Below are positions 5,847 through 16,985 of a stretch of 64,000 nucleotides of DNA, in pieces. Both the position numbers and the translations under genes were made by a program. Source of the DNA: an uncultured Pseudomonadota bacterium (GTDB lineage Bacteria; Pseudomonadota; Gammaproteobacteria; Steroidobacterales; Steroidobacteraceae); NCBI GenBank assembly GCA_903858165.1, contig CAIOHZ010000011.1:1-64000 (forward strand). The letters are read 5' to 3'. Every line of letters begins with the position of its first letter. The first letter of the stretch is position 1. The notes under the pieces are model-generated. The model had not been told where the DNA came from and did not search any database. It saw only the letters and a list, made by a program, of their open reading frames with translations.

Positions 5847-6836
5847 ATGGAATACCGAGACTACTACGCCCTACTTGGGGTGCCGCGTACCGCTGACGCG
5901 GAAGAGATCAAGCGCGCCTACCGTCGCAAGGCGCGCAAGTTTCACCCGGACGTCAGCAAGGAAAAGAACGCCGAGGCGCGCTTCAAGGAAGTGCAGGAGG
6001 CATACGAGGTCCTGAAGGACACCGAGAAGCGGGCGGCCTATGACCAGTTGGGTGCCAATTGGCGGGATGGCCAGCAATTCCGCGCGCCCCCGGGTTTTGA
6101 CTTTGGCGGGCGTGGCGGGCCACAGGGCGGTGCACATGCCAGTGGTGGCTTCAGCGATTTTTTCTCGTCGCTGTTCGGCAGTAACGGTGGCGGTGGCGGT
6201 GGCTTCAGCGGCGGCGAGGACCTTGGCGAATTGTTTGGTAGGCGCGCCGGGCAGGCGCGGCAGGCACGTGCGCGTGGGCGAGACGTCCGTGTCTTGCTGA
6301 CCCTGTCCTTGGACGAAGCCCACGCTGGCGCTTTCCGCGAAATCGACTTCGATCGTCGCCGTGCGGACGGTACGGCCGAGCGGCGCAACTTGCGTGTGAA
6401 GATTCCTGCAGGGGTCTTGCCTAAACAGGTCATCCGGCTGGGTGGTCAGGGTGACGAGGGCGCAGGTGGTCCGTCTGGCGATTTGCTGCTGGAAGTGCAG
6501 CACCATCCGTACCGTCATTACCAATTGGAAGGGCGCGACCTCCATCTCCATGTGCCGCTGGCGCCGTGGGAAGCGGCGCTGGGGGCCACGGTGCAAGTGC
6601 CCACGCTGGGAGGCGCTGTGGACCTGCGTATTCCGGCGGGCAGCAGCGCTGGCCGCAAACTGCGCCTGCGTGGTCGCGGCTTTGCTGGTGAACGCGGTGC
6701 CGCTGAAGGTTGCGGCGACCTTTATGTGGTGGTCGACATCGCCATGCCGCCCCCCAGCGACGATCCCGCAGTGGTTGCGGCTTGGGAAGCGCTACGTGGC
6801 GCAACCGCTTTCAAGCCTCGTGAGGGCTGGGAGTAA
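5847..6836 (+). CDS. cbpA: CbpA-type DnaJ-family co-chaperone
   Basis: A 329-residue class B J-protein that stimulates DnaK ATPase. It has an N-terminal J domain (MEYRDYYALLGV, HPD motif at residues 33-35), then a glycine/phenylalanine-rich linker with a run of glycines at about residues 110-125, then two DnaJ C-terminal beta-domains. It lacks the zinc-finger CxxCxGxG repeats of DnaJ, so CbpA is the better name. No CbpM partner gene follows. The ATG at 5847 is fixed by the J-domain start. Confidence 0.9.
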   Translation: MEYRDYYALLGVPRTADAEEIKRAYRRKARKFHPDVSKEKNAEARFKEVQEAYEVLKDTEKRAAYDQLGANWRDGQQFRAPPGFDFGGRGGPQGGAHASGGFSDFFSSLFGSNGGGGGGFSGGEDLGELFGRRAGQARQARARGRDVRVLLTLSLDEAHAGAFREIDFDRRRADGTAERRNLRVKIPAGVLPKQVIRLGGQGDEGAGGPSGDLLLEVQHHPYRHYQLEGRDLHLHVPLAPWEAALGATVQVPTLGGAVDLRIPAGSSAGRKLRLRGRGFAGERGAAEGCGDLYVVVDIAMPPPSDDPAVVAAWEALRGATAFKPREGWE

Positions 6837-6848
6837 GCAGCGCGGGCT

Positions 6849-7895
6849 TCAGCCCAGCACGCCGCCGAGCCAGTGCCCGATACCGAAGGTAATAGCACCG
6901 GCACCTGCACCGATAGCCAGCATGCGCAAGCCGCCGATGAACGCATTGCGGCCCGTGAACAGCGACAACACCATGCCGACACCAAACAGCGCCACGCCAC
7001 TGAGCCCGGCGGCGTAGACGGCTGCTTGATTCACAGCATGGCCGAGCAGGAATGGCAGCAAGGGTAGCGCCGCGCCCAGCGAGAACGCCAGAAAACTGAA
7101 TAGCGCGGCACTCCACGGTGAGCCGAGGTCATCGGGGTTCAGGCCCAATTCTTCGCGGGCCAGCGCATCGAGCGCGTGTTCGGGGTTCTTGACCAATTCA
7201 TAGGTCATCTCGCGGGCACGGGCCAGGTCCATGCCGCGGGCGGCGTAGATAAGCGCCAGTTCTTCCGCCTCTTCCTCGGGGTATTCCTCGAGTTCTTCGC
7301 GCTCCAAGCCAATCTGGTATTCGAACATCTCGCGCTGCGAACGCACGGAGATGTATTCGCCGGCCGCCATGGATAAGGCACCGGCCAGCAACCCGGCGAC
7401 GCCGGCAGTCAGCGCCGCACCGCTGGTCGCGCCAGCGCCAGCCACGCCCATCAACAAGCTGGCGTTCGACACGAGCCCATCGTTCACACCGAAGACGGCA
7501 GCGCGCAGGTTGCCGCCACCCATACTCTTGTGGCGCGCACCGACTTCCGACACGGAGGTGGGCATGGCATGGCCCGGGGTGGGCGCGCCGCCGCCGTAGA
7601 CGGAAAGGCCACGCAGCTTCATGGCGATGAGCGCCGTCTTCATGCGGCGCGGGCCAAGGCGCCGCAGCAGCACGGCCACCAGGCGTGCACGCGCGCTGGG
7701 TTGGAAGGCGGCGATGAACGCGGGCGTCAGCCCGCCGTTGCGTTCCCAAGTGACCGCTTGTTCTTCAGCGGAAGCACCCAGCGAAACGAACAGGGAGCGT
7801 TTGGCCAAGTCTGGCTCGCAGTCCGCCAAAATGCGGTAAAGCCAAGCGGACTGACGTTCATGGAACCAGCTTTCAGCAGCATTTTCGATCGACAT
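6849..7895 (-). CDS. Ferritin-like domain / VIT1-CCC1 family iron-manganese transporter
   Basis: A 348-residue protein combining an N-terminal ferritin-like helical region (about residues 1-100, with WFHERQSAWLYR and a later EEQA) with a C-terminal VIT1/CCC1 membrane domain of about five helices (GVNDGLVSNASLLMGVAGA, then AGEYISVRSQREMFEYQI, both family signatures). Relatives such as MbfA export Fe or Mn from the cytoplasm. The acidic segment at about residues 208-225, rich in Glu, is the expected cytoplasmic metal-binding hairpin. The ATG at 7895 is preferred (GGAG 7 nt upstream) over a GTG 18 nt earlier. Confidence 0.85.
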   Translation of the reverse strand: MSIENAAESWFHERQSAWLYRILADCEPDLAKRSLFVSLGASAEEQAVTWERNGGLTPAFIAAFQPSARARLVAVLLRRLGPRRMKTALIAMKLRGLSVYGGGAPTPGHAMPTSVSEVGARHKSMGGGNLRAAVFGVNDGLVSNASLLMGVAGAGATSGAALTAGVAGLLAGALSMAAGEYISVRSQREMFEYQIGLEREELEEYPEEEAEELALIYAARGMDLARAREMTYELVKNPEHALDALAREELGLNPDDLGSPWSAALFSFLAFSLGAALPLLPFLLGHAVNQAAVYAAGLSGVALFGVGMVLSLFTGRNAFIGGLRMLAIGAGAGAITFGIGHWLGGVLG

Positions 7896-7985
7896 GGCAA
7901 GACTCCGCGGCACGACTTGGCAGCACGGCTCCGCTTAACGACTCGGTAGTACGAATCGGCAGTACGAACTGGGCAACCGTACCCT

Positions 7986-8426
7986 TCAGGCACTCCGGGG
8001 GAGGCCGCTGCCAAGGATACGCTGTACATGGCGAATGAGGGCAAGCTCCGCTTGCGGCAGGTCGACAATGTCGATGGCACCTGCGCGGAGGGCTTCCACG
8101 GCGGTCGCCACGTCACCTTGCTCATCGAGGCAGATGGCGTCTGCTTCGCCACGCAGTCGCAACTGCCGGAGGAGTGTTCCAAGGGGCAGGTCGGATGCCG
8201 CCGACGCCAGTACGAGCAACTGCGTCTGCGCGCCGTCTACGTCGTTTAGGAGGGCCTGCCCGGAAGGGAAGACGCGCCCGAGTACGGCATATGGCTCCAT
8301 CCACGCTAGGAAATCGCCGGCAAGCCGCCCGTTGGTGGTGATGAGGCTGATGACAGGATAGAGCAGACTGGCCAAGCGGTTAACCCGCTGCCGGGCAAAA
8401 TGGAAAGAAAACGGCAGCCTGCACAA
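7986..8426 (-). CDS. Degenerate single-domain receiver (FixT-like pseudo-response regulator)
   Basis: About 146 residues from a TTG at 8426; the start is uncertain and a later TTG is possible. No database-type motif is obvious, but the chain aligns by eye with the receiver domain of the neighbouring FixJ: PVISLITTNGRLAGDFLAWM with TTVFVVDDDEAVRTSLKLLL, and GDVATAVEALRAGAIDIVDL with GDVPMAVEAMQHGAVDFIQK. All phosphorylation residues are changed: the acidic DDD is TTN (30-32), the acceptor Asp is Ala74, and the Thr and Lys positions are also lost. There is no DNA-binding domain. It follows fixJ by 61 nt. A FixT-like feedback role on FixL is inferred; there are too few cysteines for the Fe-S cluster of Caulobacter FixT. 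Confidence 0.7.
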   Translation of the reverse strand: MCRLPFSFHFARQRVNRLASLLYPVISLITTNGRLAGDFLAWMEPYAVLGRVFPSGQALLNDVDGAQTQLLVLASAASDLPLGTLLRQLRLRGEADAICLDEQGDVATAVEALRAGAIDIVDLPQAELALIRHVQRILGSGLPRSA

Positions 8427-8487
8427 TGTCCCACTACCACTGCCACCCCGCTATAACGGGTTTTACGGATGCTTTATGGACCGCCGT

Positions 8488-9111
8488 TCAGTTCGGGGCG
8501 ACCTCACCTGCGGCGATGATCATACGGACCAAGTGAGCCAGCGAGGACGCCCTCATTTTTTCCATCACCCGTGCGCGATGGATTTCCACCGTTCGTTGGC
8601 TGACGTCGAGGTCGCCCGCGATGACCTTATTGGCCTTGCCGGCGGTAACAAGATCCAGGACTTCCTTCTCGCGCGGAGTGAGGTCGGCGATGCGGGCGCG
8701 GATGTTGTCGCGCTCACGCAGACCGGCGCGGTTGTCGCGGTCTTTCTCTAGCGCCTGATTGATACGGTCCAGCAGGTCCTGGTCGCGGAAGGGCTTCTGG
8801 ATGAAGTCTACGGCGCCATGCTGCATGGCCTCTACGGCCATGGGCACATCACCGTGCCCGGTGATGAACACCACGGGAATCATGGCGTGCAGCGCATTCA
8901 GACGTTCTTGCAGTTCCAAACCGCTCATGGCGGGCATACGAATGTCCAGCACCAGGCAGCCCGGGCGCTCGGCATCGAAGCGGTCGAGGAATTCTTGTGC
9001 TGAAACACAGGTTTCCACGGGCAAGCCCACGGACCGCAGCAGCAACTTCAGCGACGTACGCACTGCCTCGTCGTCGTCAACCACGAATACGGTAGTAGTT
9101 TTTTCTTTCAT
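8488..9111 (-). CDS. fixJ: FixJ-family two-component response regulator
   Basis: A 207-residue regulator with an N-terminal receiver (acidic pocket DDD at 12-14, acceptor Asp56, Thr84, Lys106) and a C-terminal LuxR/NarL-type helix-turn-helix (LTPREKEVLDLVTAGKANK, then SQRTVEIHR). It should be phosphorylated by the adjacent FixL and activate low-oxygen genes, such as the cbb3 genes upstream in the same unit. The second of two in-frame ATGs (9111) is chosen because GGAG lies 9 nt before it, whereas it abuts the first ATG. Confidence 0.9.
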   Translation of the reverse strand: MKEKTTTVFVVDDDEAVRTSLKLLLRSVGLPVETCVSAQEFLDRFDAERPGCLVLDIRMPAMSGLELQERLNALHAMIPVVFITGHGDVPMAVEAMQHGAVDFIQKPFRDQDLLDRINQALEKDRDNRAGLRERDNIRARIADLTPREKEVLDLVTAGKANKVIAGDLDVSQRTVEIHRARVMEKMRASSLAHLVRMIIAAGEVAPN

Positions 9112-9129
9112 GGCGGACATCTCCGGTCG

Positions 9130-10269
9130 TCAGTGGCTTTCGACGCCCGGCAACACGCCGAGTGGTGGTAGCGTGAAAAAAAACGTGCAACCGCCACCTG
9201 GCGTACTGCGGTAAGCGAGACGCCCGTTATGGGCGCGGATGATGGAGCTGCTGATGACCAGACCAAGGCCAGTGCCACCGGGTTTGGTGGTGAAGAAGGG
9301 ATGGAACAGCCGTTCGGCTGCCTCGGTGGAGAGGCCATGGCCGTGATCGGCGACTGCTACTTCCACCATGCCGTCGCCGTCCAAGTTGGCGCTGAGAATC
9401 ACTTCGCGGTGGGCACTGGGAACGTCGACAGAGGCATCGATGGCGTTGCGCACCAGGTTGATGAGCACCTGTTGTAGTTGCACGGGGTCGGCGGTGATCG
9501 GTGGTAGTGAGTCTGCCACTCGTAAGCGCAGTTGCACGTTGTTGCTGCGCGCATCCGCCTCCAGCAACAGGCGCGAGTCTTCCACCACTCGCCTACAGTC
9601 CGCTCGTTCATGGCGGACTTCGCGGTTCTTCACGAATGCGCGCAGCCGACGAATGACTTCGCCTGCCCGCAGGGCCTGTGCAGTGATTTGGTCAAGGGCC
9701 TCACTGAGGTCTTCGCGTTCGATACCTTCCGGGCGCGAGAGCATGCGGGTAGCCGCTTGCGAGAAGGTGGCAATGGCGGTCAATGGCTGGTTGATTTCGT
9801 GGGCGAGGCCGGCGGCCATTTCGCCCATGGTGGACAGGCGTGCGAAGTGATTGAGCCGCGCCTCGGACTGGCGCGCGGCCTCTTCCGCCTGCCTGCGCAG
9901 GGTGATGTCGTGTAGGAAGCCGACAAAGCGACGCGGACTACTTTGTTGCACCTCACCGACGGCGAGCATGGCCGGGAATACCGAGCCGTCGCGGCGGCGG
10001 GCAGGAACCTCGCGACCGATGCCGATGATTTTAGCTTCGCCAGTGTTCAAGAAGCGCTTGATGTAGCCGTCGTGGCCGGCGCGATCAGCGCCTTCCATGA
10101 GCACAGAGACATTCTTGCCAAGCACTTCGTCCGCCTGCCAGCCGAACAGACGTTCGGCCGAGCGATTGAAGGTTTCGATGATGCCGTTCTCATCGATGAG
10201 AATGACGGCCTCCACAGCAGCATCGAGTACTGCTTGGAGGTCCAGTCGGGCACGAAGACCTGCGGGCAT
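9130..10269 (-). CDS. fixL: FixL-like soluble PAS sensor histidine kinase (probable haem oxygen sensor)
   Basis: A 379-residue kinase without membrane segments: one PAS domain (about 10-125), a HisKA region with H-box GLAHEINQPLTAI (His157), and an HATPase domain (NLVRNAIDA; GTGLGLVIS). The PAS domain carries the FixL pattern. His66 in GHDGYI sits where the proximal haem histidine (His200 of Bradyrhizobium FixL) is found. Twenty residues on, Arg86 in IIGIGR matches Arg220, which senses bound oxygen, and Ile81 matches Ile215. The His214 position is Lys80. Haem binding is therefore likely but unproven. It precedes fixJ by 18 nt. Confidence 0.87.
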   Translation of the reverse strand: MPAGLRARLDLQAVLDAAVEAVILIDENGIIETFNRSAERLFGWQADEVLGKNVSVLMEGADRAGHDGYIKRFLNTGEAKIIGIGREVPARRRDGSVFPAMLAVGEVQQSSPRRFVGFLHDITLRRQAEEAARQSEARLNHFARLSTMGEMAAGLAHEINQPLTAIATFSQAATRMLSRPEGIEREDLSEALDQITAQALRAGEVIRRLRAFVKNREVRHERADCRRVVEDSRLLLEADARSNNVQLRLRVADSLPPITADPVQLQQVLINLVRNAIDASVDVPSAHREVILSANLDGDGMVEVAVADHGHGLSTEAAERLFHPFFTTKPGGTGLGLVISSSIIRAHNGRLAYRSTPGGGCTFFFTLPPLGVLPGVESH

Positions 10270-10296
10270 CCTGGCTAGCCCTGCAACTGCGGACGG

Positions 10297-10650
10297 CTAG
10301 TAGTCGTTCCGGCTACTGCCGGAACCGTCATCGTCATCTGCTGGGTCATCGTCATCCTCGTCGTCGTCATCCCAGTCATCGTCCTCGTCGTCCTCATCAT
10401 CCTCGTCGTCTTCCTCCTCGTCGTCCCACTCGTCTTCTTCATCGTAATCGCTGGGGACTGCGGGGGCAGCCGACAACTCGAGGTCCAACTCGTACCAGGA
10501 ATCGAGATCGATCTCCTCGGCCTCGTCGTCGTCTTCGTAGTGGAGCGTGATGATGCCCTCGTCCTCGTCGACGCGAACGACGCGGAACAAGGTGTCCTCG
10601 TCCAGGTTGTCATACCACTGGCCGGCTTTCGGCTCGTACTCCCTACCCAC
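10297..10650 (-). CDS. DUF6763-like small protein with a polyacidic tail
   Basis: About 117 residues. The first 55 form a small beta domain (GQWYDNLDEDTLFRVVRVDE, DEAEEIDLDSWYEL) resembling the DUF6763 family of gammaproteobacteria, function unknown. The last 55 or so residues are nearly all Asp and Glu, ending GSGSSRNDY. I choose the GTG at 10650 because GAGG lies 8 nt upstream and the upstream gene ends at 10661; a longer frame to 10716 would overlap that gene. The polyacidic tail is odd and may bind cations or mimic nucleic acid. Confidence 0.65.
   Translation of the reverse strand: MGREYEPKAGQWYDNLDEDTLFRVVRVDEDEGIITLHYEDDDEAEEIDLDSWYELDLELSAAPAVPSDYDEEDEWDDEEEDDEDDEDDEDDDWDDDDEDDDDPADDDDGSGSSRNDY
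10321..10440. repeat. Trinucleotide-rich tract coding the polyacidic tail
   Basis: The plus strand is a run of TCN, TCG and TCC triplets (GAN/GAY codons on the coding strand) that encodes consecutive Asp and Glu. Such simple tracts can change length by slippage in steps that keep the reading frame. Confidence 0.6.
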
Positions 10651-10660
10651 GGCTTCGACC

Positions 10661-11482
10661 TCATGCTGCTGCGCGAACGGCGCGTACCGATAGTGTAAGG
10701 CTCCCGCCGCCATCACGGAAGCCGGAAAGTGCGGCGGTGGGGTGTTGGTGCGGCATGGCCGGGTCGTCGCCGTGATGGCGCTGGTGGGGCGCGAACAGGA
10801 AAGCCGCCTGTGCGACAGCGAGCAGGACCAGCGCCATCGCTAGCGCCCAGCGCGCCCAAGTGTTAGCGCGGTTGGGTACCGTCCGGGCGGCCAGCCCCGT
10901 GAGTCGGCCCAGGGCGCCCGCTCCGAGCAGGGCCGGCCAAGTACCCAGTGCAAAGGCAGCCAGCAGGACTGCACCGTGCCACGCGGCGCCGGTGGTAGCC
11001 GCGAGCGCCGCCATGGAAAGCACCAGGCCGCAGGGAATGAAGGCCCACACCATGCCAAGTGCATAGCTGCGCCAAGGCTCCCGCCAGTTTCCGGCACGGC
11101 GCGCTAGCGGTTGCAGCCATTGCCAGAAGTACCCACCTAGCCGCTCCAGCCCCAGAAGGTCGCGGCGGAACGCCAGACGAGTAGCAAGACTGAGGAGCGC
11201 TAGCGCTGCCATGAGGCTGGCGAGGAGGCGCAGGACGTTGCTGGCAGGCGAGGTTAATCCGGCACCTAGACTTGAACTTAGACCAGCACCGAGGCCACCC
11301 GCTAACGCGCCCAAGAGCGTGTAGGCCAAACTGCGCCCGCATTGCAGGCGCCACAGGCCCGGGGTGGCTGCGGGCATCAGGGCGGTTTGCAGTCCGCCGC
11401 ACATGCCAAGGCAGTGCCCACCAGCGGCGAGGCCGGTCAGCATGGCTCCTGTCAGTTGCGTATAGAGCGCGGCTTCAATCAT
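10661..11482 (-). CDS. TauE/SafE-like membrane protein of the cbb3 assembly cluster
   Basis: A 273-residue membrane protein of the sulfite-exporter TauE/SafE / UreH-like (DsbD-transmembrane-like) group that is often found after ccoS. It has about six hydrophobic helices and the conserved N-terminal GGHCLGMCGGLQTAL and central WAFIPCGLVLS, whose cysteines suggest copper or thiol handling. A role in delivering copper or reductant for cbb3 assembly is inferred from position. The start overlaps the ccoS stop (ATGA). A His-rich stretch near residue 232 (HQRHHGDD) could bind metal. Confidence 0.8.
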   Translation of the reverse strand: MIEAALYTQLTGAMLTGLAAGGHCLGMCGGLQTALMPAATPGLWRLQCGRSLAYTLLGALAGGLGAGLSSSLGAGLTSPASNVLRLLASLMAALALLSLATRLAFRRDLLGLERLGGYFWQWLQPLARRAGNWREPWRSYALGMVWAFIPCGLVLSMAALAATTGAAWHGAVLLAAFALGTWPALLGAGALGRLTGLAARTVPNRANTWARWALAMALVLLAVAQAAFLFAPHQRHHGDDPAMPHQHPTAALSGFRDGGGSLTLSVRAVRAAA

Positions 11483-15692: not shown

Positions 15693-16030
15693 TTTGGCTC
15701 GTCAGGCGGGCTGCGCAGCGTGCAGGCAAGGTACAGCGTGATGCCGCTGGCGCTGGCGGTAATGCCCCAGAAAAAGAAGAACCCCAGCCCGTAGCCGGCC
15801 AGACGGCCGCTCAGCAGGGGGGAGGGAAGGGCGCAGGCCGCCAGGGCCAAGGGGTCTACCCAAGCGAACATGAACATGGTGGCCATGCCTGCCGTCAGGA
15901 ATGACGGCCAGAGAACCATGGCGAGATTGCGACCCGCTGGAGGCCACGTCGCGGGTGTGGCCTCCGGCAGTTCGTCGTCCACGGCGTCCGTTTCAGTGGG
16001 CTTGGGTGCCTGCGGTGTCGGTTGGTTCAT
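15689..16030 (-). CDS. Two-helix membrane protein of the cco operon, function unknown
   Basis: A 113-residue protein with a hydrophilic N-terminus rich in Pro, Thr and Glu and two hydrophobic helices (about 40-70 and 80-103). Small proteins of this kind lie between ccoP and ccoG in several gammaproteobacteria. No function is known to me. The ATG at 16030 (GAGGGGG upstream) lies 38 bases inside ccoP, and the stop overlaps the ccoG start. Confidence 0.72.
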   Translation of the reverse strand: MNQPTPQAPKPTETDAVDDELPEATPATWPPAGRNLAMVLWPSFLTAGMATMFMFAWVDPLALAACALPSPLLSGRLAGYGLGFFFFWGITASASGITLYLACTLRSPPDEPK

Positions 16031-16985
16031 GCGCGTCCCCCTCGGGCGAATCATTCGCTTCGTGTTCTTCCCTTTCCTCATCCGTGGCACCGGAGAGGTT
16101 CAAGACGTACGCGGTCAGCAATTTGACGCGAGTGGCACCGAGTATGTCGGCGTGTGCTGGCATCTGGTTATTACGGCCTTTGGCTACGGTTTCGCGAATG
16201 GTTTCGATGTTGCCGGCGTAAAGCCAGATGTTGTCGGTGAGGTTCGGGGCGCCGAGGGCGATGTTGCCGCGCCCATCGGCACCATGGCACGCCACGCATA
16301 CGGTGGCGAACTGCTCTGCACCAGCTTTGGCCTGGCGTTGCATCTGTGCATCACCGGGGTGCCCGGAGAGCGCCAGCACGTAACTGGATACCTGCTCTAC
16401 GCCTTCAGGGCCGATGATTCCTTCCCAGGCCGGCATGACAGCCACGCGGCCTTGGGTGATGGTCGTGGTGATAGTGGCCGGGTCGCTGCCATGCAGCCAG
16501 TCGCCATCGGTGAGGTTGGGAAAACCTTTGCTGCCATGCGCGTCCGTGCCATGGCAGGCTGCGCAGTGGTTGGCGAACAAATTGCGAGCGGTGCGCATGG
16601 CGTTATCGTCATGGCGCAGTGTGTCTAAATTCATGTGGTCGTATTTAGCCAGTTGTACGTCGCTTTGCTTGCGTGCCGTGGCGACATCGGCAGCCCAAGC
16701 GTTCTCCTGCGTCCAGCCGAGGCGCCCCGCAAAGTTGCCAAGACCGGGGTAAAAGACCAGATACCCGAGGCCGAAGATGACGGAGGCATAGAAGCCCCAC
16801 AGCCACCAGCGCGGCAAGGGGTTGTTGTATTCGCTGAGGTCGCCGTCCCAAGTGTGCCCGGTAGTCTCCTCGGCAGGGCCTTGGTGGCCAGGGCGCTTGC
16901 GCGAGGTGGCCCATAGCAGCCACAACGCGCCAGCGATATTGATGGCCGTCAAGACGACTACCCAGTAGTTCCAGAAACGGTTCAT
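15993..16985 (-). CDS. ccoP: CcoP, di-haem cytochrome c subunit of cbb3 oxidase
   Basis: A 330-residue subunit with an N-terminal pair of helices (about 5-26 and 60-80) and two cytochrome c domains. The haem sites are CAACH (141-145) and CVACH (230-234); NPLPRWW between the helices is typical. It carries electrons from the bc1 complex to CcoO. The tail after residue 300 is acidic. The ATG overlaps the ccoQ stop (ATGA). Confidence 0.96.
   Translation of the reverse strand: MNRFWNYWVVVLTAINIAGALWLLWATSRKRPGHQGPAEETTGHTWDGDLSEYNNPLPRWWLWGFYASVIFGLGYLVFYPGLGNFAGRLGWTQENAWAADVATARKQSDVQLAKYDHMNLDTLRHDDNAMRTARNLFANHCAACHGTDAHGSKGFPNLTDGDWLHGSDPATITTTITQGRVAVMPAWEGIIGPEGVEQVSSYVLALSGHPGDAQMQRQAKAGAEQFATVCVACHGADGRGNIALGAPNLTDNIWLYAGNIETIRETVAKGRNNQMPAHADILGATRVKLLTAYVLNLSGATDEEREEHEANDSPEGDAHEPTDTAGTQAH

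Follow-up and report, generated by a model that had tools for sequence, protein, structure and literature searches.

This study describes a single-domain pseudo-receiver, here called DR, which is encoded as the third gene after fixL and fixJ and belongs to a clade of 59 related proteins standing beside a well-studied sensor pair; across the clade the phosphorylation pocket is lost by degrees while one face stays the same. We tentatively propose, from sequence comparison, that this order-wide clade, fixed third in clusters of haem-type FixL and FixJ and keeping the dimer face of FixJ, tunes FixJ through mixed receiver dimers. It was known already that a pseudo-receiver may be attached to a two-component system, and that FixT occupies the same slot; what is new is the DR clade itself, how widely it occurs, its series of erosion steps and the face that it keeps, and searches of open-access PMC papers brought up nothing similar to this family. 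A 2025 review describes the mode of action of pseudo-receivers as a mystery (PMC12632262), and with the present family the question of what a dead receiver does narrows to a few binding tests on specified residues.

Locus and neighbouring genes

The window, by which we mean the whole analysed stretch of 64,000 nucleotides from an uncultured bacterium of the Steroidobacteraceae (Steroidobacterales), carries the following features.

9130-10269, minus strand: fixL, a PAS-HisKA-HATPase kinase, from domain profiles
8488-9120, minus strand: fixJ, a response regulator whose pocket is intact and whose output domain is of LuxR type (NF006900, 256 bits against a cut-off of 255)
7986-8426, minus strand: DR, the single-domain pseudo-receiver, third gene after fixL-fixJ; open reading frame of 146 aa counted from TTG
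8331-8339, minus strand: codons of T30-T31-N32 in DR, where the alignment places the Asp-Asp-Asp acidic pocket of FixJ
8205-8207, minus strand: codon of Ala74 in DR, in the column of the phospho-acceptor Asp, by alignment
8061-8111, minus strand: alpha4-beta5 of DR, residues V106-D122, from the AlphaFold2 model, the alignment and the residue list of PMC7815116
8058-8060, minus strand: codon of Leu123 in DR, in the column of the conserved Lys, by alignment
6849-7913, minus strand: VIT-family gene, PF01988 over residues 136-347, plus a further N-terminal region

On the minus strand the order is fixL, 9 bases, fixJ, 61 bases, DR, 72 bases and the VIT-family gene, which lies on the same strand after DR and may offer an iron-transport link to the oxygen sensor. 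By alignment, the window FixL retains the His and Arg that S. meliloti FixL has in the columns which we take to be those of the haem residues, an assignment checked against that protein only. Just upstream of fixL, a DUF6763 protein with a long Asp/Glu-rich tail was noticed (window 10297-10716), and a DUF6763 match also lies upstream of fixL in several related loci. Window 6800-10900 yielded no sigma-70-like promoter and 7 terminator-like sites against 3.2 expected; on the minus strand, none of these separates fixJ from DR. The FNR box has a single exact match in the window, inside the open reading frame at 15993-16985, and the Pfam Crp helix-turn-helix model has one match in the window genome at E 0.001 (C40:28400-28495), possibly a FixK/FNR counterpart.

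Sequence and predicted fold of DR

The first possible start of DR is TTG, no ATG being present, and its first residues are of low confidence in the model. The pocket reads T30-T31-N32, with Ala74 in the acceptor column, Asp101 in the Thr column and Leu123 in the Lys column. The alignment thereby agrees with the first-pass annotation, which had described a receiver-like chain beside fixL-fixJ that aligns with FixJ but has no acidic pocket, acceptor Asp, Thr or Lys, and the profile scan agrees with it that an output domain is missing. No Pfam family was detected in DR up to E 1, and its best family signal is NCBIfam FixJ (E 5.6e-8, residues 38-138). The structure prediction proposed at that stage also came out in favour of a receiver fold, as AlphaFold2 with an 18-row alignment gave such a fold at pLDDT 82.1 and pTM 0.78, Foldseek with this model placed the FixJ structures 5xt2, 1d5w and 1dbw within the best 50 matches, and VIA-align returned receivers at Z about 15. 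Two cysteines are present, at residues 2 and 99, and form no cluster. A pseudo-receiver (PsR) is a receiver fold without at least one of the residues DD, D, T/S and K (as cited in PMC12548384), and DR is one, since all five are gone while the fold is kept; it is not a FixJ, since it has neither a phospho-acceptor Asp nor a LuxR-type output domain.

Distribution of third-slot receivers

A single receiver after fixJ was observed at 46 of the 83 family loci examined, in ten genera, a proportion that is not a frequency, as loci were chosen strongest-FixJ first and then by hand across genera. These 83 comprise 80 fixJ regions from 79 genomes and the loci of the three nearest congeners (window included); 200 genomes of the family were drawn, 162 had FixJ at E 1e-60 or better, and 82 supplied loci. 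In the order-level search, 44 of 97 genomes matched and the best 30 loci were taken with about 1.5 kb on each side; of the 26 order-level loci L127-L152, 22 are from outside the family, and a third receiver was found at 13 of these 22, in five further families. Outside the order, none of 6 loci from 5 genomes has a third-slot receiver. Where erosion had carried a third gene beyond the reach of the receiver profile, it was scored as absent. The counts leave out a Caulobacter plasmid receiver and, at L093 and L096, the second of the two receivers. A view of DR as a lineage-specific oddity is not borne out, as the clade spans six families of the order.

FixL is also present at all 46 family loci with DR, and 41 of the 42 DR-linked FixLs reaching the site have His and Arg at the haem columns, with Gln in one and four cut short; an earlier strict regex had recovered these residues in 25 of the 46, and the alignment was used instead. 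Haem sensing goes together with DR.

In DR-bearing genera, DR was not found after fixJ at 6 loci of genus g23 and at 2 of genus g4, where a contig end truncates one of the two loci. At L047, L049, L051, L057 and L058 (g23) and at L066 (g4), a VIT or CbpA-like gene stands directly next. In the 900 bases after fixJ at DR-less loci, matches were short or overlapped the next gene. The exception is L069, which was scored absent although 14 matching residues at the end of its contig suggest a truncated DR. The six named loci of g23 and g4 are natural absences that could serve as comparisons.

Other arrangements were also noticed. L093 and L096 (genus g11) carry two receivers after fixJ, the first a dead member of the DR clade and the second with an intact pocket and outside the clade. 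On plasmid p1 of Caulobacter sp. FWC26 (L037:2239-4874), a FixL/FixJ-like pair is followed by a single intact-pocket receiver beside copper-resistance genes, and this receiver could still be phosphorylatable. A tblastn search of plasmids with DR returned 19 weak partial matches, mostly to FixJ or other receivers. L009 and L010 are near-identical clusters in records titled Janthinobacterium lividum and Candidatus Planktophila lacus, titles that contradict each other and cannot both be right.

Graded erosion of the pocket and origin of the clade

None of the 59 DR has an unbroken acidic pair, which is intact in 98 of 98 aligned FixJ receivers; its second Asp is lost in 58 of the 59, and the sole keeper is without the first. 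The remaining positions are lost by degrees, the acceptor column holding Asp in 26 members, Glu in 17 and other residues in 16 (Asp gone in 33), the Thr column being Thr or Ser in 18 of 59, and the Lys being kept in 41 and lost in 18, against 98 of 98 FixJ receivers that keep both acceptor and Lys. The Lys is lost in the window genus, in genera g10 and g11, in one g14 genome, in families f2, f16 and f10, and in three of four f4 members, and the window genus stands at the eroded end of the series. Glu at the acceptor column was noticed in most g23 and g24 members; because an Asp-to-Glu change at the acceptor site activates NtrC (reference in PMC4395418), some of these members may, by analogy, be locked on.

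With FastTree, all 59 third-slot receivers fall in one clade with none of the 98 FixJ inside (support 0.994). The clade holds when 28 other receivers of the window genome are added, though with only moderate support, 0.845 with and 0.681 without the active-site columns, and IQ-TREE under a site-mixture model, with 44 of the 59 members and active-site columns removed, recovered it at SH-aLRT 93, not starred, in a run that warned of few columns. The Caulobacter plasmid receiver lies outside the clade, as does S. meliloti FixT, a single row on a very long branch. On our reading, DR arose a single time within this order, out of a FixJ-like receiver, and has since been retained alongside haem-type FixL and FixJ.

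Conserved and lost surfaces

The dimer face of FixJ is alpha4-beta5 (PMC4395418, PMC7815116), and our use of this face rests on FixJ itself rather than on the NarL/FixJ family generally, for which the face is given as alpha1-alpha5, not alpha4-beta5 (PMC12632262). The residues of S. meliloti FixJ reported as critical for dimerisation are V87, P88, V91, M94, K95, D100 and E103 (PMC7815116). Alpha4 alone among the elements varies far less in DR than it does in other receivers (entropy 1.42 against 2.72 bits), beta5 shows little difference at 1.34 against 1.59 bits, and DR is the more variable at beta1, the acidic pair and the acceptor loop; setting an orthologous clade against 28 paralogues favours low DR entropy everywhere, so only the pattern over elements counts. 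With similarity groups of our own choice, the seven FixJ dimer residues are kept in kind at a mean of 5.88 of 7 in DR, 5.5 in the 18 Lys-less members, 5.1 in the window's own FixJ clade and 2.07 in the 28 other receivers. The window DR reads V A V L R D D at these positions, six of them in kind (V106, V110, L113, R114, D119 and D122), and the P88 position is kept in only 14 of 59 members. Mean entropy over the seven columns in DR is 1.00 against 2.04 for all columns, a value as low in 26 of 20000 random sets, and the DR-minus-other difference there was reached by 0 of 20000.

Two of the dimer positions differ from FixJ in charge, DR having R in 50 of 59 and E or D in 54 of 59 where its own FixJ has Q in 50 of 59 and Q in 59 of 59. 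R or K at 100 together with E or D at 108 occurs in 45 of 59 DR, as against none of their 59 own FixJ and a single one of the 28 other receivers; rhizobial FixJ also carries the charged pair.

On the kinase-facing side, the four alpha1 columns that we take to set kinase specificity, placed by way of the Asp pair of RR468 (whose residues the 4jav title lists), are variable in DR (2.70 bits), with L27 of this set kept in 42 of 59. Identity of alpha1 to the window FixJ is 0.16 in Lys-less DR, 0.19 in other receivers and 0.00 (0/14) in the window DR. Compared with their own FixJ, the 41 Lys-keeping DR are identical at 0.35 in alpha1, 0.41 in the K-P loop, 0.55 in alpha4 and 0.81 in beta5, and the Lys-less members at 0.14, 0.14, 0.47 and 0.45, respectively. 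Four rhizobial FixTs, in which alpha4-beta5 is truncated, give 0.38, 0.50, 0.05 and 0.00 in the same order. Alpha4-beta5 thus separates all DR from FixT, and alpha1 separates the eroded members only. Because alpha1 of the eroded members, window DR included, is at the level of unrelated receivers, the case for their docking to FixL through alpha1 is weakened, though docking to FixL may persist, above all in the 41 other members.

Maintenance of the gene

DR orthologues were found in 4 of 4 genomes of the window genus, with the frame open in each. Among three close congeners, dN/dS is 0.17-0.18 for DR, 0.045-0.064 for FixJ, 0.12-0.15 for FixL and 0.03-0.05 for the VIT gene, which makes DR the fastest-evolving of the four; the more distant genus pair L001-L039 gave 0.43 for DR at dS 1.49, near saturation, and was set aside. 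DR is under purifying selection, and a pseudogene was rejected on this dN/dS together with the open frames in the congeners.

Possible function and alternatives

Judging from the kept face and the shared gene slot, DR probably acts by gripping a partner rather than by being switched on. It would work without phosphorylation, through its alpha4-beta5 face, and would most likely pair with the FixJ receiver; mixed dimers are suggested because a dead receiver keeps the dimer face beside a regulator that dimerises through that same face. Dimerisation through alpha4-beta5, with FixJ foremost or with DR itself, is in our estimate a serious candidate that falls somewhat short of probable. Mixed DR-FixJ dimers would hold one DNA-binding domain and so damp FixJ, or DR might bias which FixJ dimers form; a DR homodimer acting elsewhere would be the less likely form. 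The charged pair could complement FixJ, R114 facing a FixJ Asp and a FixJ Gln facing the DR Asp/Glu. If fixL, fixJ and DR share a transcript, DR would rise with FixJ and set the gain of the oxygen response. Were this true, the gene slot that holds an antikinase in rhizobia would here hold a protein regulating at the level of the response-regulator dimer.

The first-pass annotation had raised a possible FixT-like feedback arm. As an antikinase of this kind, DR would bind the FixL transmitter in the place of FixJ, take no phosphate and inhibit autophosphorylation. A non-phosphorylatable single receiver in the slot of fixT is indeed what was found, FixL accompanies DR at every family locus, and FixT and Osp are precedents, each inhibiting its kinase unphosphorylated and with no acidic pair (PMC7078487, PMC9430884); in the 41 less eroded members, moreover, alpha1 is nearly as FixJ-like as that of FixT, the K-P loop is FixJ-like too, and L27 is mostly kept. 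Against this, the FixT profile has no match in DR, FixT falls outside the clade (on its long branch), the columns that would face the kinase belong to the variable part of DR, the window DR shares no alpha1 residue with FixJ, and the best-kept face of DR is absent from FixT. We regard such an antikinase as rather unlikely, and we favour dimerisation with FixJ (or with itself) over FixL inhibition.

The charged residues bear on a further alternative, as R plus E/D in DR against Q/Q in FixJ may insulate DR from FixJ and hence give homodimers. DR would then form R-E pairs across alpha4-beta5 and serve a partner outside FixLJ, for example the VIT-family iron gene, with FixLJ controlling its amount only. 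The 45 members with the charged pair fit such self-pairing and insulation, and at 22 of the 46 family loci the first gene recognised next to DR is of the VIT family; but a divergent CbpA-like gene has that place in 20 of 46, fixJ lies upstream in all (partly by design in a fixJ-based survey), and no candidate partner was found. We hold this explanation to be improbable. Still more so is a decaying relic, a third receiver losing its function with the window genus on its way out. The graded pocket loss, the missing DR at the g23 and g4 loci and a dN/dS above that of FixJ would agree with decay, but each of the three close pairs within the window genus has a dN/dS far below 1, the frame is open in each of the four congeners, and alpha4-beta5 is selectively retained in the most eroded members.

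Comparison with known systems

Like FixT of S. meliloti and C. crescentus, DR is a single FixLJ-linked receiver without output domain that has lost the acidic pair, and it shares the slot of Sinorhizobium FixT (fixL-fixJ-fixT-fixK), as S. meliloti fixT, named here by matching annotated records, is located in pSymA between fixJ and fixK. It differs in keeping alpha4-beta5, which is truncated in the four rhizobial FixTs, in not grouping with the single, long-branched FixT row of the trees, in having no 4-Cys motif and in giving no profile match: NF051882 is absent among the 8 NCBIfam families of DR up to E 1, has three weak matches elsewhere in the window genome with none above cut-off and none at DR, and exceeds its cut-off in 1 of 14 control genomes, S. 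meliloti FixT itself scoring 27.9 bits against a cut-off of 150. For four of the five other receivers scanned (L037, L022, L011 and L018), the profile comparison covers at most 25 families each. The contrast that had been drawn from cysteines, by which DR would not be FixT for want of them, was rejected. The 4-Cys Fe-S motif is described for Caulobacter FixT only (PMC7078487), and S. meliloti FixT, with two Cys, still inhibits FixL, so few cysteines do not set DR apart from FixT. The comparison suggests that dead receivers came to occupy the position after fixJ on two occasions, each time keeping a different surface.

Osp of Rhodobacter sphaeroides, an inhibitor of CckA, is likened to DR by description, being a single receiver without acidic pair or Lys; unlike DR, it keeps Asp51 and acts on the hybrid kinase of another pathway (PMC9430884). 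CmrT of Clostridioides difficile (with CmrR/CmrS) and WhiI of Streptomyces (with BldM) are, like DR in the proposed reading, pseudo-receivers able to pair with a response regulator. CmrT stands in one operon with its two-component system, and WhiI/BldM and CmrT/CmrR are described as regulator heterodimers (PMC12632262, PMC12548384); unlike DR, both CmrT and WhiI carry DNA-binding domains. The FixJ receiver itself gives the best profile match of DR and shares its dimer-face residues, whereas DR is without the phosphorylation pocket and the LuxR-type output of FixJ and has R and E/D for Q and Q at two dimer positions.
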